Assembly (NCBI GenBank): GCA_022827945.1
Contig: JAJEIT010000032.1
Location: forward strand, 1 to 36,815
Length of the DNA stretch: 36,815 nucleotides
Origin: Dehalococcoidia bacterium
Lineage (GTDB): Bacteria; Chloroflexota; Dehalococcoidia; Tepidiformales; Tepidiformaceae
Direction: 5' to 3'
Part shown: positions 10,758 through 18,347 of the stretch, one piece after another
Numbering within the stretch: the first letter of the stretch is position 1
Layout: each line of letters begins with the position of its first letter
The notes under the pieces: generated by a model
What the model saw: only the letters and a program-made list of their open reading frames with translations
The model's database searches: none
What the model was told of the DNA's origin: nothing
Translations under genes and position numbers: made by a program

Positions 10758-13136
10758 CTACTCCTCGATGGTGATCTTGACGATCACGCTCCTGGAGTCC
10801 GAGACGAAGAGCGCGCCGTCGGGAGCCACGACGAGACTCGTTGGATCGATGCCTTCATCCGCGACGATCGAGATGACCCCATCGCGCGTCACCCTGAGAA
10901 CGCGGTTGTAGCCGCTATCGACAACATAGAGTTCGCCGTCCGGACCCACCCCGATGGCGGACAGGAAGGCCGAGAACGCTCCCCCGTACCGGTGGCTGGG
11001 CGTGCTGACGACGGGCGCGACCTCGCCGCCGCGATCGATCCTGTGGATCGTTCTATTGCCGTCAGTCAGGAAGATGACACCCTCGCTGTCGACGGCGATC
11101 CCCTTGGGCGAATGAAAGCTGGCGATGGTGGAAACCTGGCCATCCGGGGTGAGGCGTTGGAGGGGACCATACGGAGAGTCGGCGACAAGCAGGTTGCCCT
11201 CACCGTCGAAGGCAAGCGTACGGGGCGCCAGGAACCGATCCCCGGCGCCCGCGACGGTCGTGACCGAGCAACCGGCGTCAATCCGGCGAATGAGGTCCGA
11301 CCCTCGTTCGGACACATAGATCATGCCGGTGTCGTCCACGGCCACGCCCACCGGAGAGTCGAACCGGGCGTCCTTGCACGGTCCGTCGAGTACTCCCGCG
11401 CCGTGGCCGCCCGCGATCGTGGTCACGACTCCATCCGGGTCGACGCGCCGGATTGCGTGGTTCAGGGTGTCGGCAACGATGAGGTTGCCGCGGCGATCAA
11501 ACGCAAGCTGGTCGGGCAGCGTGAACCTGGCCTGGTCGGCGGGACCGTCCACCAATCCCTGGCCGCCTTGCCCGGAGAAGACGCTGACTCGCACACCAGC
11601 CACGCGCGGCAGCTCCTCGAAGTCCGCGAGCGGGATGTCGCCAAACTCCGCCTCACCACGGTCGGGCAGGATCCTGCGAACCACCCTGCCATCCTGGTCG
11701 GACACGACGAGGGCGCCGTTCGGCGCCAGCGCCAACGCCTGCGGCGCGTGGAAGAGCGCGTGCCCGCGCGGACCCTGGACATGGCCCGGCTCGCCTGTGC
11801 CGGCTACTCCCCGGAACTCACCCTCCGGCGTCAGCCGGACGATCTGATGCGCACCCGTGTTGGCGATGTAGACAACGCCCGCGCCGGTTACCGCCAGCCC
11901 ATCGGGACTGGCCAGCGTTCCGCCCAGTGCCGGATACCTTCCCTGGTAGAGGGTCGAGACCATGCCGGAAGTGTCGATCTTTCGAATGGTGAAGGCCGCC
12001 TCACGCGAGTGAATCGAACCTCGATTATCATCAATCAGGTAGACGTTGCCGGCGTCATCCACGGCGATGCCCCGGAGCCCCTGGAACTGCGCGCCGGCCT
12101 TTGGACCATCGCGCCAGCCATGCCCGTTGTCTCCGGCGAACGTCGAAACCCAGCCTGACGCCGAAAGGCGCCTGACGGCGTAATGCTCAGTGATGTACAG
12201 GTCGCCATACGCGTCCAGGGCAAGTTTGCGCGGGTTGTCGAGCACCGCCTGCAGGGCAGGGCCGTCCCGGGTTTCCCGGGGCCCGCCGTCGGACCGGTCG
12301 CTTCCCGCGACCGTCGACACGGTGCCATCCGGCGAGATCTTGCGGATACGGTCATTCCCGCTGTCGGCGACATAGATAGCGCCGTCCGCACCTACCGCAA
12401 CGTCGGCGGGGAACCTGAACCGGGCAGTCTCCGCGGGACCATCCTGCAAACCACGCCCGCTGGCGCCGGCGATTGTGCTCACCGTTCCATCGGGCGCGAT
12501 CCTGCGGATGGCGTGGTTGTAGTAGTCCGCAACGACCACCCCGCCGTCGCGCTCGACGGCCAGCCCGAGTTTCCCGTACTCAAGTCTCCCGCCACCAAAG
12601 CGCGCCGTTCGCCCGCTCCCGTCGACATACCCCCAGACCCCCGGCGAGCCGGCCACGGTCGACACCGGGGATTCCGGATACGGAACATCGAGCGTGATGT
12701 CGCCGTAGCGGAACCTTCCGCCGGAGCTCAGACCGTCATCCAGCGCCAGCGGGATCGTGCCCAGTGTGCGCCACGAGCCGCCCTCGGGCCGGGCGCTGAT
12801 GTAGATCCGGGCGCTGTCGTACACGTCCTGCCAGACGCGCACCTCCACGGTGACCGGCACCGCCCGGTTCGCCAGCGGCACGTCGACGTCGATATCGCCG
12901 TAGCGGTACTGACCCGTCGAGCTGACGCCGTCGTCCAGCGGCAGGGGGATGGTGCCCAGCGTCCGCCACGAGCCCGTGGCCGGGCGGGCGCTCACGTAGA
13001 TGTCGAGCTCATCCCCTACGTCCTGCCAGACCCGCACCTCGACCCGGACCGTGCCGGGGTCGCCCTGCGCCGCTCCGGGCGCCAGCACCGCAAGCCCCAG
13101 CAGGATGCCAACGGCTGCGACAGCCAGCCTTCTCAC
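10758..13136 (-). CDS. Secreted double NHL-propeller protein, paralogue 1
   Basis: The protein has 792 residues from GTG 13136 (VRRLAVAAV). A signal peptide ends near PGAAQG. Two copies of a ~60-residue module follow, each starting VEVRVWQDV and containing SWRTLGTIPL and a YRYGDI- or FRYGDI-type end. The rest is twelve NHL/SMP-30-like repeats of the type VSTVAG, DGPA--ARF, P-GVAVD, G-IYVADS and RIRKISPDG. A break after the sixth suggests two six-bladed propellers. NHL propellers bind ligands or carbohydrate, or act as scaffolds; no enzyme residues can be claimed. The longer start is a TTG in a region that instead fits a promoter and mini-ORF. It is intact and has the same orientation as its two paralogues. 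Confidence 0.88.
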   Translation of the reverse strand: MRRLAVAAVGILLGLAVLAPGAAQGDPGTVRVEVRVWQDVGDELDIYVSARPATGSWRTLGTIPLPLDDGVSSTGQYRYGDIDVDVPLANRAVPVTVEVRVWQDVYDSARIYISARPEGGSWRTLGTIPLALDDGLSSGGRFRYGDITLDVPYPESPVSTVAGSPGVWGYVDGSGRTARFGGGRLEYGKLGLAVERDGGVVVADYYNHAIRRIAPDGTVSTIAGASGRGLQDGPAETARFRFPADVAVGADGAIYVADSGNDRIRKISPDGTVSTVAGSDRSDGGPRETRDGPALQAVLDNPRKLALDAYGDLYITEHYAVRRLSASGWVSTFAGDNGHGWRDGPKAGAQFQGLRGIAVDDAGNVYLIDDNRGSIHSREAAFTIRKIDTSGMVSTLYQGRYPALGGTLASPDGLAVTGAGVVYIANTGAHQIVRLTPEGEFRGVAGTGEPGHVQGPRGHALFHAPQALALAPNGALVVSDQDGRVVRRILPDRGEAEFGDIPLADFEELPRVAGVRVSVFSGQGGQGLVDGPADQARFTLPDQLAFDRRGNLIVADTLNHAIRRVDPDGVVTTIAGGHGAGVLDGPCKDARFDSPVGVAVDDTGMIYVSERGSDLIRRIDAGCSVTTVAGAGDRFLAPRTLAFDGEGNLLVADSPYGPLQRLTPDGQVSTIASFHSPKGIAVDSEGVIFLTDGNRTIHRIDRGGEVAPVVSTPSHRYGGAFSAFLSAIGVGPDGELYVVDSGYNRVLRVTRDGVISIVADEGIDPTSLVVAPDGALFVSDSRSVIVKITIEE

Positions 13137-13156
13137 GCACCACCCCGACGAGGCAT
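13133..13156 (-). CDS. Seven-residue leader mini-ORF before NHL paralogue 1
   Basis: ATG 13156 opens MPRRGGA followed by TGA, which overlaps the main GTG start as GTGA. A TATGGT box (13164-13169) ends 7 nt before this ATG, the same spacing seen at other leaderless genes. The mini-ORF also contains GGGGTGG, which may act as ribosome site for the main gene. The same design recurs in both other paralogues. Confidence 0.4.
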   Translation of the reverse strand: MPRRGGA

Positions 13157-13220
13157 CCGCGCGACCATAACGCAAACGTGGCAGGAAGGTATCGGGATGG
13201 GCGCCACGGGCTGGAAGAGG

Positions 13221-13263
13221 GGCGCGCTACTACCAGGTCGACGGCCGCTCGAAGGCGCTAGGG
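13221..13263 (+). pseudogene. Ghost of the SDR gene 3' end
   Basis: These 43 bp resemble 10702-10744, the last codons of the SDR gene (CTACTACCAGGTCGACGG is shared exactly, then CGCTCGAAGGCGCTAGGG against GGCTCCAAGGCGCGCTAGGG). No SDR body is attached. It lies just beyond NHL paralogue 2's stop, as the real SDR end lies just beyond paralogue 1's. It marks the edge of an old tandem duplication. Its TAG shares CTAG with the paralogue 2 stop. Confidence 0.8.
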
Positions 13264-15816
13264 ACCCTCCGCCTGCGCGTCCCCGAACGTGATCTTCCGG
13301 ATTGTGTTGCCGCCGGCATCCGACACGAGAAGAGAGCCGTCGGGCAGGACCAGAATCCCGTGGGGGCTGCCAAGCCGGTCCGCGACGATGGACAACTCCC
13401 CTTCCCGCGTGACCCTGACGACCCTCCCGTAATCCGGGTCAGCCACGTAGAGCGCGCCGTCCGCCCCGACCGCAATCCCGACAATGAAGGGGGAGAGCGC
13501 GCCCCCGTAGCGGCGGTCCGGGGTCTGGACCACCGTCGAGACGTAGCCGGTTTCGTCGATCATGCGAATGGCGCTGTTGCTCTCGGTGAAGAAGACGATC
13601 CCTTCGTCGTCGACCGCAATCCCGTCGGGAAGGGCGAAGAGGGCCGCGTGACTGTGTCCGTCCCGGCTCCCGGGATTGTAGGCACTGGCATTGGCCCCGC
13701 TCGGCGGGCCAGCGATCGTGGAGACGCGGCCATCGGGGGAGAGCCGCCGGATGAGGTTGTTGATGTGGTCGGCGATGAACAGGTTCCCTTCACGGTCAAA
13801 GGCGAGCGCGCCGGGACTGCGGAACCGGGCCTCGGCAGCCGGTCCGTCTCGAAAGCCGCCCGTATCGCGTTCGTCCGTTCCGAAGTCGGTTGCGCCGCCG
13901 GCAACCGTCGTGACGACGCAGCTGCCGGAGATGGTGCGAATCCGGTGGTTTCTCGTATCCGCCACGTAGATGAGGCCATCCTGGTCCACCGCCACTCCCC
14001 GCGGCTCCCTGAACAGCGCCTCGGAACAGGCTCCTTCCCGCAGGCCCTCCCCACCTCCTCCCGCCACCGTGGTGACTGTCCCGTCGGGGGCAATACGCCG
14101 GATGGCGTCGTTGCCCGAGTCGGCGACAATGACGCTGCCGTCGGGCTCAAGCGCCATTCCCCATGGCCGGTAGAAGAGCGCTTCAGCGGCCGGGCCGTCC
14201 TCGAACCTGGGCACCCCGCCGAACTTGGCCCCGGGCTTCCCCGCATAGACCTCCACGGTTACGCCCCGCACTCGCGGGATCCCCTCGGCCCCGGCGGTTT
14301 CAAGTCCCGGCGTTCCGAGCACGTTGTCTCCAAGGGCGACCCTGCGGATGACGTTGTTCCCTTCGTCGGCCACGACCAGAACGCCGGCCACCGAAACGGT
14401 TAGCGCGCCGGGCAGGTTGAAGAGCGCCTCGTCGAGGGCGCCGTCCGTGTAGCCAGGCTCGCCCGTGCCCGCCACCGCCCGGAGGTTCCCGCTGCTGGTA
14501 AGCCGGACGATCTGGTGCCGGCCGGTATTGGCGATGTAGATGAGGCCATCGCCGGCGACGGCGAGCCCCACCGGATACGCGAGCGCTCCCCCGTGGGCGG
14601 CGGGGACATCCCGATAGAGCGTGGACACGGTTCCATCGGTGTCGATGGCGCGGATCGCGATTCCCGGGTCGGCATTCGGCAAGTACCGATTGTCGATGAC
14701 GTAGATCCTTCCCTCGTCGTCGATGTCGATCGCGAGCAGACTGAAGAACCGGGCGTGCGCGGCAGGACCGTCCCGGTAGCCGAGCTCGGATCCCCCGGCG
14801 AAGGTCGAAACCCACCCCGATGGCGATATCCGCCTGATGCGCCGATGTTGGTCGATCACATACAGGTCGCCGAGGTCGTCAATCGCGATACCGTGGGGAA
14901 AGGCGAATCTCGCTTCCGCGCCCGGACCGTCGGCGAACTCCCCCCACGCGCCATCTTCGTAAGGATGCCCGTAGATGGGACCGCTGCCCGCGACCGTCGT
15001 CACCATCCCATCGGGTGCGATCTTGCGGATGCGGTGGCCGTAGGAGTCGGCGACGTAGATCGAGCCGTCGCCCGCGATGGCCACGTCCGTCGGGCCGGCG
15101 AACTGCGCCTCGTCGGCGGGACCGTCGCGCACGCCCTTGCCGTTGCCGCCGGCGATCGTGGTCACGGTGCCATCGGGGGCGATACGGCGAATGGCGCGGC
15201 TCTCGCGATCCGCCACGACGACACTGCCGTCGCGGTCCCCCTCCAGTCCCAGGCCCAGGTCTTCGTAGTAGCGGCCGAACCGCGCCTCACTCCCGGGCCC
15301 GTCCCGGTACCCGCGCACCCCCGGCTGCCCCGCGAGGGTCGTCACGGCCGCGTCGGGCGGCGGGACGTCCAGGGAGACGTCGCCAAACCGGAACCGCCCC
15401 GTCGAACTAAGGCCGTCGTCCAGCAGGAGGCGAATGGTGCCCAGCGTTCGCCAGTCGCCACCCGCCGGCCGGGCGCTGATGTAGATGCGGGCGCCATCGC
15501 GCACGTCCTGCCAGACGCGCACCTCCACGGTCGCCGGCGACGCCCGGTTCGCCAGCGGCACCTCGAGGGCGATGTCCCCATAGCGGTACTGACCCGTCGA
15601 GCTGACGCCGTCGTCCAGCGGCAGGGGGATGGTGCCCAGCGTCCGCCACGAGCCCGTGGACGGGCGGGCGCTCACGTAGATGTCGAGCTCATCGCCGACG
15701 TCCTGCCAGACCCGCACCTCGACCCGGACCGTGCCCGGGTTGCCCTGCGCCGCCCCGGGCGCCAGCACCGCGAGCCCAAGCAGGATGCCGACGGACGTCA
15801 CGGCCAGCCTTCTCAC
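13258..15816 (-). CDS. Secreted double NHL-propeller protein, paralogue 2
   Basis: The protein has 852 residues from GTG 15816 (VRRLAVTSV). The layout matches paralogue 1: signal peptide, two VEVRVWQDV modules, and twelve NHL-type repeats in two sets of six. Blades read for instance VTTIAGGNGKGVRDGP, DVAIAGDGSIYVADS and RIRKIAPDG. Signal peptide and first module are nearly identical to paralogue 1 at the DNA level (VSSTGQYRYGDI in both), while propeller blades have diverged. This suggests recent duplication or gene conversion of the 5' part. The length difference comes from longer inter-blade loops. The stop codon lies inside the SDR ghost. Confidence 0.88.
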   Translation of the reverse strand: MRRLAVTSVGILLGLAVLAPGAAQGNPGTVRVEVRVWQDVGDELDIYVSARPSTGSWRTLGTIPLPLDDGVSSTGQYRYGDIALEVPLANRASPATVEVRVWQDVRDGARIYISARPAGGDWRTLGTIRLLLDDGLSSTGRFRFGDVSLDVPPPDAAVTTLAGQPGVRGYRDGPGSEARFGRYYEDLGLGLEGDRDGSVVVADRESRAIRRIAPDGTVTTIAGGNGKGVRDGPADEAQFAGPTDVAIAGDGSIYVADSYGHRIRKIAPDGMVTTVAGSGPIYGHPYEDGAWGEFADGPGAEARFAFPHGIAIDDLGDLYVIDQHRRIRRISPSGWVSTFAGGSELGYRDGPAAHARFFSLLAIDIDDEGRIYVIDNRYLPNADPGIAIRAIDTDGTVSTLYRDVPAAHGGALAYPVGLAVAGDGLIYIANTGRHQIVRLTSSGNLRAVAGTGEPGYTDGALDEALFNLPGALTVSVAGVLVVADEGNNVIRRVALGDNVLGTPGLETAGAEGIPRVRGVTVEVYAGKPGAKFGGVPRFEDGPAAEALFYRPWGMALEPDGSVIVADSGNDAIRRIAPDGTVTTVAGGGGEGLREGACSEALFREPRGVAVDQDGLIYVADTRNHRIRTISGSCVVTTVAGGATDFGTDERDTGGFRDGPAAEARFRSPGALAFDREGNLFIADHINNLIRRLSPDGRVSTIAGPPSGANASAYNPGSRDGHSHAALFALPDGIAVDDEGIVFFTESNSAIRMIDETGYVSTVVQTPDRRYGGALSPFIVGIAVGADGALYVADPDYGRVVRVTREGELSIVADRLGSPHGILVLPDGSLLVSDAGGNTIRKITFGDAQAEGP

Positions 15817-15836
15817 GCACCACCCCGACCAGGCAT
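15813..15836 (-). CDS. Seven-residue leader mini-ORF before NHL paralogue 2
   Basis: ATG 15836 encodes MPGRGGA and stops at a TGA overlapping the main GTG (GTGA). A TATGGT box (15844-15849) lies 7 nt upstream of the ATG. Confidence 0.4.
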   Translation of the reverse strand: MPGRGGA

Positions 15837-15880
15837 CCGCGCGACCATAACGCAAACGTGGCGGGCATTACCCCACCCGG

Positions 15881-18238
15881 CTACTCGTCCGGGAGCGTGA
15901 TCTCCCAGATCGTCCCCTGGATGCCCCCCAGCCCTCCACCGGCGACGAGCAGGCGTCCTCCTGGCGTAACAACGAGCCCGCGCGGTCGGAACTCGCCGCC
16001 GCCAAAGTCCTCTCGGTCGACGACGGTCGCGACGCTGCCGTCGGGAGCGATCCTGAGGATGCGGCCATACTTCTCGTCGGTTACGTAGGCCATGCCGTCG
16101 GCGGAGAAGTCCAGCCCCCGGGCGTGTATGGAGAACAGGCCTCCCCACTGGCCGCTGGAGGTCTCCAGCACAATCGCGAAATCGCCATTGCTGGTGCGTC
16201 TCAAGATCGTCGTTCCGGTGAGGTAGTCCGTTCCAACGACCCACAGCTCGCCGTCCGGGCTCACACCCATGCCACTGATGCTGTCGTGCCGGGGGACCGG
16301 CAATTCAGACTGGGAACCGTCGGGACGAATCCGCTGAACCTCGTCGTTTCCGGCCCCATCTCCCTTGAGGACTACCAGCAGGTTGCCATCACCGTCGTGG
16401 TCCAACAGGTGCGGCTTCTTCCCGAACGTGTGCAGCGTAGAGACCGTGCCATCGGTCGTGATCTGGCGAATGGCCCGGTTGCCATACTCGGCAAGGACGA
16501 TGTTGCCGTCGGCATCCAGCACGATGCCCTCGGGCGACCTGAACTCGGCCTCGTCCGCGGGCCCGTCGACGAAGCCCCTTCCGTTCCCGCCCGCCAGGGA
16601 AACGATCCTCCTGCCGGGTGTGACGCGCCAGACGCCATCGTTGTTGTCTCCGACGTAGACGTTGCCGTCGTCGGCGAGGGCGAGGTCCACGGGGACGAGC
16701 CCGAACCGGCGCGCGTAGACCCTTACGGTTACGCCCTCGATGCGCGGGACTCGCAGCCCCTCCGCGACCGCAATGCTCCCGAGCGGGAACCCCTCCTCGG
16801 CGGGCGTGATCCGGCGAATGACCGTGCCGTCCTGGTCGAACAAGACGAGCGAGCCATCCGCGGCGATGTCGAGCGACTTCGGCCGGTAGAACGTGGCCTC
16901 GCCGGCAAGCCCGTCGTCGGCGCCTTCCGCTCCGGTTCCGGCGATCCCCAGCAGCTCTCCATCGGATGTGAGCGACACGATCTGGTGGCGCCCCGAGTTC
17001 GACACGTAGATCGTGCCCCCTCCCGTCACCGCGATGCCGTTCGGATAGGCCAGCAGTCCGCCAAGGGCCGGGGGATCGCTGTGGAGCAGCGTCGTGACCA
17101 CGCCGTCCGGGTCGACCTTCCGGATCGTGGCGAACTCGGTGGCCGCCCCATCGTCGATGTCGATCACGTAGAGGTTGCCGGCGTCATCCACATCGATGTC
17201 GTGCAGGCCGGCGAACTGGGCGCGCCCGGGGGGACCGTCGATCTGGCTCCGGCCTCCTCCCCCGGCAACCACCGACAAGAGGCCATCCGGCGAGAGAACC
17301 AGGATCCGGTTGCGCTCGATGATGTACAGGTTGCCTTCGGTATCAAGGGCGAGGCCGCGCGGCTGGTCGAGCTCTGCCTCCAGGGCGGGGCCGCCAGCGA
17401 CACCTTCCCCGCCGCCCGCGACCGTCGACACGTTTCCGTCCGGTGAGATCTTCCGGATCAGCTCATTGCCCCGGTCGGCGACGAAGATGTTCCCTTCCGG
17501 GTCGACGGCGACATCGCCGAGAGCCCGGAACTGCGCCTCCGACGTATGCCCGTCGTTATCGCCATATCCGTTGCGGCCGGCGATGGTGGCGACGGCGCCC
17601 CCGGTCGAGAGCTCGCGAATCGCGTTGCTCCAGCTATCGGCAATGATGACGCTGCCATCAGGGTGGGCCGCCAGCGCGACTTGCCGGGCGGCTCCCGCCC
17701 GGCCACCGAACAGCACGTTGGAGCCGCTTCCATCGCGGAACCCCCAGGAGCCCGCGCGGCCGACGAGTGTCGTGACTCGCCCTTCCGGGAGCGGCACGGC
17801 GAGCACCGTGTCGCTGTAGCGGAACCGGCCCGTGAGGCTGATCTCTTCCATGGGAAGGCGGATGGTTCCGAGCGTTGCCTAGGAGCCGCCCGCCGGCCGC
17901 GCGCTGATGTAGAGAAGCCGTGGGTTCCCGACGTTCTGCCAGACCCGTATCTCCACGGTGGCTGCCGGCCCTCCGCTTCGGAGGGGGACATCGAGCAGGA
18001 TGTCGCCATAGCGGAATCGCGACGCGCTGACGCCGTCGTCGAGCGGCAGATCCACCGTGCCGAGCGTCCGCCACGATCCGCCCTGGGGCCGAGCGCTGAT
18101 GCTGATGTCGAGGTTGTCCCTGACGTTCTGCCAGACACGCACCTCCACGTTGATGGTCGGGCCTCCCTGGGCCGACCCTCCGGCCAGCATGACCACGCCC
18201 AGCAGCGCCGCCAGCGCCAGAACCGCCAGCCGTCTCAC
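15881..18238 (-). pseudogene. Secreted double NHL-propeller protein, paralogue 3, interrupted by an amber codon
   Basis: From GTG 18238 (VRRLAVLAL) the frame encodes a signal peptide and two VRVWQNV modules. It then hits TAG at 17879-17881, codon 120. The frame continues unshifted to 15881 with twelve NHL-like blades (NVSTVAGGGEG, GNIFVADRGNELIRKISPDG and so on). The paralogues have TGG-CGC (Trp-Arg) in the same SWRTLGTI motif, so one G-to-A change explains the stop. As read, the product is a 119-residue secreted double module without propeller. Downstream codons show no further breaks, so the lesion is recent, an assembly error, or read through. The blades are more diverged than in the other two. 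Confidence 0.8.
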
Positions 18239-18258
18239 GCACCACCCCCGCGAAGCAT
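18235..18258 (-). CDS. Seven-residue leader mini-ORF before NHL paralogue 3
   Basis: ATG 18258 encodes MLRGGGA with TGA overlapping the main GTG. A TATCGT box (18266-18271) is 7 nt upstream. Peptide sequence differs from the other two copies but length, spacing and overlap are kept. Confidence 0.4.
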   Translation of the reverse strand: MLRGGGA

Positions 18259-18347
18259 CCGCGAGACGATAACGCAAACGCGGCGGGAATTTCCCCAGCC
18301 CCCCTCTGCAGCCGCCACCGCCGGACACGCCGCCACCCCGCGGCATC

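Follow-up and report, generated by a model that had tools for sequence, protein, structure and literature searches.

Leaderless small ORFs that are coupled to the following gene by an RTGA overlap have been described in mycobacteria, where they are backed by RNA-seq, transcription start site mapping and ribosome profiling (Shell et al. 2015, PMC4633059). This RTGA-coupled class is enriched genome-wide (23/220 vs 32/1000), and two options have been proposed for it: restart after termination, or direct entry at the Shine-Dalgarno (SD) sequence (Shell et al. 2015, PMC4633059). In E. coli ptrB, changing the 5'-AUG to AUC lowered downstream expression by 93%, and a start-stop arrangement lowered it by 59% (Beck et al. 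2016, PMC4965119). At overlapping genes, an SD motif can aid restart, and coupling may operate alongside direct entry (Huber et al. 2019, PMC6728339).

Here we analyse a leader found three times in a 36,815-nt stretch of DNA (the window) from an uncultured bacterium of the Dehalococcoidia (Chloroflexota), in front of three NHL paralogues. The original prediction was that a leaderless ribosome enters at a seven-codon mini-ORF and reinitiates on the main gene. The leader architecture and the proposed mechanism are already described in mycobacteria (Shell et al. 2015, PMC4633059); the present case belongs to another phylum.

Results

The exact pattern TANNNT-N7-ATG-N17-GTGA matched three times in the window, always on the minus strand, with no match expected in shuffled sequence, and the whole 2.85 Mb genome contained these three matches only. 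The search recovered in all three paralogues the predicted layout of a TANNNT box, 7 nt, an ATG, six codons and a TGA overlapping the main GTG, and the peptides MPRRGGA, MPGRGGA and MLRGGGA are as originally given. The features are as follows.

13169-13133, 15849-15813 and 18271-18235, minus: whole motif, copies 1, 2 and 3 (exact pattern match)
13164-13169, minus: TANNNT -10 box TATGGT, copy 1 (exact match)
13133-13156, minus: mini-ORF MPRRGGA*, copy 1, its final 4 bases forming the GTGA overlap (pattern and translation)
13139-13147, minus: SD-like stretch in mini-ORF 1, for the main GTG (duplex with the 16S tail, -12.5 kcal/mol)
10758-13136, minus: NHL-repeat secreted protein 1, GTG start, 792 aa (Pfam NHL E=2e-40; signal peptide after the GTG)
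15844-15849, minus: TANNNT -10 box TATGGT, copy 2 (exact match)
15813-15836, minus: mini-ORF MPGRGGA*, copy 2, GTGA overlap (pattern and translation)
15819-15827, minus: SD-like stretch in mini-ORF 2 (duplex -12.5 kcal/mol)
13258-15816, minus: NHL-repeat secreted protein 2, GTG start, 852 aa (Pfam NHL E=8e-53)
18266-18271, minus: TANNNT -10 box TATCGT, copy 3 (exact match)
18235-18258, minus: mini-ORF MLRGGGA*, copy 3, GTGA overlap (pattern and translation)
18241-18249, minus: SD-like stretch in mini-ORF 3 (duplex -16.1 kcal/mol)
15881-18238, minus: NHL-repeat gene 3, broken by TAG at 17881-17879, codon 120 (translation)

The NHL assignment of the three paralogues was borne out by Pfam PF01436, which scored genes 1, 2 and 3 at 135, 174 and 102 bits against a gathering cut-off of 20. 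In each of them the signal peptide begins right at the main GTG, and each protein carries N-terminal copies of the repeat VEVRVWQ..ISARP..GSWRTLGTI..FRYGDI; many further genes of the genome have a VEVRVWQ-type N-terminal repeat, and the majority of these have no mini-ORF. The TAG in gene 3 (window 17879-17881) takes the place of the Trp that is conserved in the GSWRTLG motif; the frame is still open past it, with an ATG at 17851, and the TAG marks a pseudogene, a recent mutation or an assembly error. An Rfam search of the window returned one tRNA and nothing else, and folding of the 5' ends did not find a shared RNA structure.

The 5' regions of copies 1 and 2 share 91% identity over 124 bp and are recent duplicates, near-identical by descent; these copies are therefore not independent evidence, and the likeness on which the original prediction drew is partly plain descent. 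The near-identical 5' ends of genes 1 and 2 (window 13060-15865), set against bodies that are only 61% identical, point to gene conversion or to an exchange of cassettes between the tandem copies.

Across the genus, the cassette occurs in eight copies in 4 of 9 genomes, with no indels; the five added copies, which give independent support, come from three other genomes (L054 and L068 in G003, L056 and L069 in G002, L065 in G006). The mini-ORF length, the ATG and the GTGA overlap are kept in 8/8 copies, and the peptides (MPRRGGA, MPGRGGA, MLRGGGA, MPLGSGV, MPCSGGL, MPRGGDA twice and MPRGGDG) are of seven different kinds, so that the alignment check proposed with the original prediction, which looked for a constant frame and overlap with a varying peptide, came out as anticipated in every cassette-bearing copy. 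The predicted leader layout is thus kept by related species of the genus. Conservation among homologues in general is more restricted: the ATG/TGA frame stands in all eight cassette copies, but most homologues lack the mini-ORF. Changes within the mini-ORF fall about evenly on the three codon positions (7, 8 and 5), so the conserved element is not the peptide; a functional peptide was rejected, as third-position changes are not in excess. The A at +3, which completes the TGA, is invariant even though codon 2 is AGA, AGC or AAA; A occupies that position in 252 of 728 sampled genes (35%), and 40 of 47 Arg codons there are CGN.

A tree of the protein bodies does not group the eight copies together, and the 5' cassette has consequently been either exchanged among tandem genes or repeatedly lost. 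Together with the homogenised 5' end of copies 1 and 2, this scatter implies recombination between the tandem copies, which leaves fewer independent observations. Run over 38 genomes of the family, a sequence model of the leader gave confident matches to the eight known copies only, the next best having E = 5e-4; a weak match of that value is L218 (G026:C349:12242-12283), in another genus of the family. A mismatch-tolerant pattern search of 148 relatives gave only scattered single matches in unrelated contexts.

Spacing between TANNNT boxes and start codons was counted in 0.8 Mb samples of the own genome and of G003, in which a simple hexamer model had served to predict the genes. A TANNNT preceded an in-frame ATG or GTG by 6, 7 or 8 nt in 106 cases in the own genome and 86 in G003, compared with about five per spacing elsewhere, and out-of-frame starts at the same spacing were at background level. 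This leaderless signature marks about 12% of the predicted genes in the two samples (L115-L154, L245-L284) of this high-GC genus, which suggests a fraction above the published Chloroflexi values of 4-6% (PMC3160421). The 7-nt spacing between box and mini-ORF ATG lies inside the leaderless peak of both genomes; the mRNA 5' end is therefore probably the mini-ORF ATG.

Two relatives bear on the origin of this ATG. The corresponding start is in frame in L156 (isolate APA_bin_13), which closely resembles gene 2 in its body, and in the more distant L073 (G006) (MLRSGTLLGRLAVAA, VRQCESIVGRLAILG), and L061 and L067 also look direct leaderless. The distance from the start to the conserved Arg-Leu codons is 27 nt in L156 and L073 and 26 nt in the mini-ORF copies, so that one base separates a direct leaderless start from the arrangement with a mini-ORF; any direction given to this change would be conjectural. 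The mini-ORF start is homologous to the in-frame leaderless start of the sister genes.

In copies B2, B3 and B4 of sub-group B (the divergent sub-groups A, with A1-A4, and B, with B1-B4, were told apart by signal peptide), a TGA stands at -6 in the main frame, two codons ahead of the GTG; there can accordingly be no upstream protein start in these copies, and the GTG is the first possible one. An upstream TTG start, which the original prediction had named as counting against it, is thereby ruled out in three orthologues. The remaining copies have a TTG or GTG at -39, ahead of the -10 box, and A4 has a further TTG at -15. The 16S tail of the genome is the usual one, CCTCCTT, and in all eight mini-ORFs it can form an SD-like duplex ahead of the GTG of -9.9 to -16.7 kcal/mol, whereas internal GTGs have a median of -5.7 and leaderless genes one of -4.9; the mini-ORF energies are reached by 0.2-11% of internal GTGs. 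A4 has lost the run of G, and its pairing with the 16S tail is still -11.6. The proposal that a stretch inside the mini-ORF could serve the main start thus holds for 8/8 leaders at the level of complementarity.

Outside this family, coupled mini-ORFs behind a box were not significantly enriched across 1.6 Mb of two genomes, RTGA following boxed out-of-frame starts in 7/19 cases vs 617/2855 (p = 0.10). The closest lookalike mini-ORF, at a transporter gene (contig C75 position 25503), was rejected, its ATG being absent in 6/6 relatives. From these two results, the device appears specific to the NHL gene family, and the broader suggestion that mini-ORFs are a way to give leaderless transcripts an internal start does not describe a general device of this genome. 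In seven genomes (L285-L291), a transporter gene has a TAGNGT box 18 nt before its GTG, which is a TTG in one relative; its very short leader is thus conserved.

Discussion

We consider that entry of a leaderless ribosome at the mini-ORF, followed by SD-aided termination and restart at the GTG, is the best explanation as a whole, and we hold it with about even confidence. Each NHL gene would have its own TANNNT promoter, from which an mRNA would begin at the mini-ORF ATG or within a base of it. The GTG with its embedded ribosome site would be the real start, one nucleotide out of frame from the mini-ORF, and the SD-like stretch in the last mini-ORF codons would hold the terminating ribosome there or recruit further subunits. 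The mini-ORF peptide itself would have no function. In favour of this reading are the constant length, ATG and GTGA of the eight copies, the higher identity of the leader than of its flanks between sub-groups, the 7-nt spacing, the absence of any earlier start in B2, B3 and B4, the SD-like duplex energies, the invariant A at +3 and the position of the start in L156 and L073. Of the two halves of the original prediction, leaderless entry is a well-supported inference from the box spacing and the in-frame relatives, whereas reinitiation is no more than plausible, since the SD-like stretch could load the GTG directly. Against the reading, the embedded SD may be sufficient alone, and other paralogues manage without a mini-ORF.

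The embedded SD-like stretch leaves two live models, SD-aided termination and restart or direct SD entry. In the latter, the SD-like stretch of a 20-nt leader would bind 30S subunits, which would initiate at the GTG; the ATG would be a frame-shifted relic of an old leaderless start or a mere landing site, as in E. coli ptrB, and ribosomes would not have to read through the mini-ORF. This is a serious possibility, if a somewhat less than probable one: the strong complementarity persists in 8/8 leaders despite sequence change, including A4, at energies that few internal GTGs attain, and part of the boost that a 5'-AUG can give to downstream expression does not require the uORF to be translated (Beck et al. 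2016, PMC4965119). By itself, however, direct initiation gives no account of the ATG, the frame and the A of the TGA being kept in all eight copies, and the leader of the transporter gene, which is unrelated but has a box and GTG like these, lacks the ATG in 6/6 relatives, indicating that such leaders need none.

The remaining explanations are considerably weaker. That the leader is merely a promoter which recombination has spread through the tandem genes, with a mini-ORF devoid of any role, would fit the contrast between the 5' regions and the bodies of copies 1 and 2 and the scatter of the cassette over the body tree; we regard it as improbable, since block-copying would take the flanks too, and conservation between A and B spans the box to the GTG and drops on both sides (0.48 and 0.57 vs 0.81). 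Identity is 81% over the 33-nt leader from box to GTG, 48% in the 27 bases upstream and about 31-32% in the stretch before those, and 57-62% in the signal peptide, with 42% at its third codon positions; within the leader, it is 100% for the ATG, 71% for the mini-ORF interior and 76% for the SD-like stretch. A protein start further upstream in the main frame, at the TTG at -39, would make the mini-ORF internal to the gene, and the frame is indeed open to a TTG in A1, A2, A3 and B1; that TTG precedes the -10 box, the GTG is where the signal peptide begins, and the TGA at -6 has already refuted this start for three orthologues, leaving it very improbable. Just as hard to credit is a -1 ribosomal frameshift that fuses the mini-ORF to the main frame: some copies do have a G run before the overlap, but a canonical slippery heptamer is not seen and A4 is without the run (CAGTGGTGGT).

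Returning to termination and restart, its strictest form is that a leaderless start lying out of frame by one nucleotide has been kept as an obligate relay, the GTG being reached only after mini-ORF termination, and that a cassette of promoter, relay and signal peptide has been exchanged among tandem secreted NHL proteins in the genus; we consider this unlikely. The sister genes, with the start either in frame (direct leaderless) or one base off (relay), constitute a natural set, which makes the ribosome-delivery idea testable by very small changes.

Among known systems, the E. coli class of Beck et al. (2016, PMC4965119) likewise places a 5' AUG before a main start that is led by an SD, but requires no conserved GTGA overlap, and its 5' end was mapped experimentally whereas ours is predicted. 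The gene pairs of Huber et al. (2019, PMC6728339) share the four-base stop/start overlap and an SD motif able to aid reinitiation, with a normal gene as the upstream partner in place of a seven-codon leaderless ORF. The mycobacterial class of Shell et al. (2015, PMC4633059) resembles the NHL leaders, whose leaderless start is predicted, in several ways: a short ORF begins at a leaderless RTG and ends in a TGA that overlaps the RTG of the following gene in the -1 frame, the architecture is kept between species and the peptide is not, an SD is embedded in the coding sequence, and ribosome delivery has been proposed. Unlike that class, the present case is computed only, in one gene family of one Chloroflexota genus, and its length is constant at seven codons, with a homologous counterpart in frame in sister genes. 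The enrichment of the mycobacterial class is not significant here (p = 0.10); it characterises the mycobacterial set collectively and is not required of each member. The NHL leaders, as putative leaderless RTGA-coupled ORFs, thus extend the mycobacterial architecture to the Chloroflexota.
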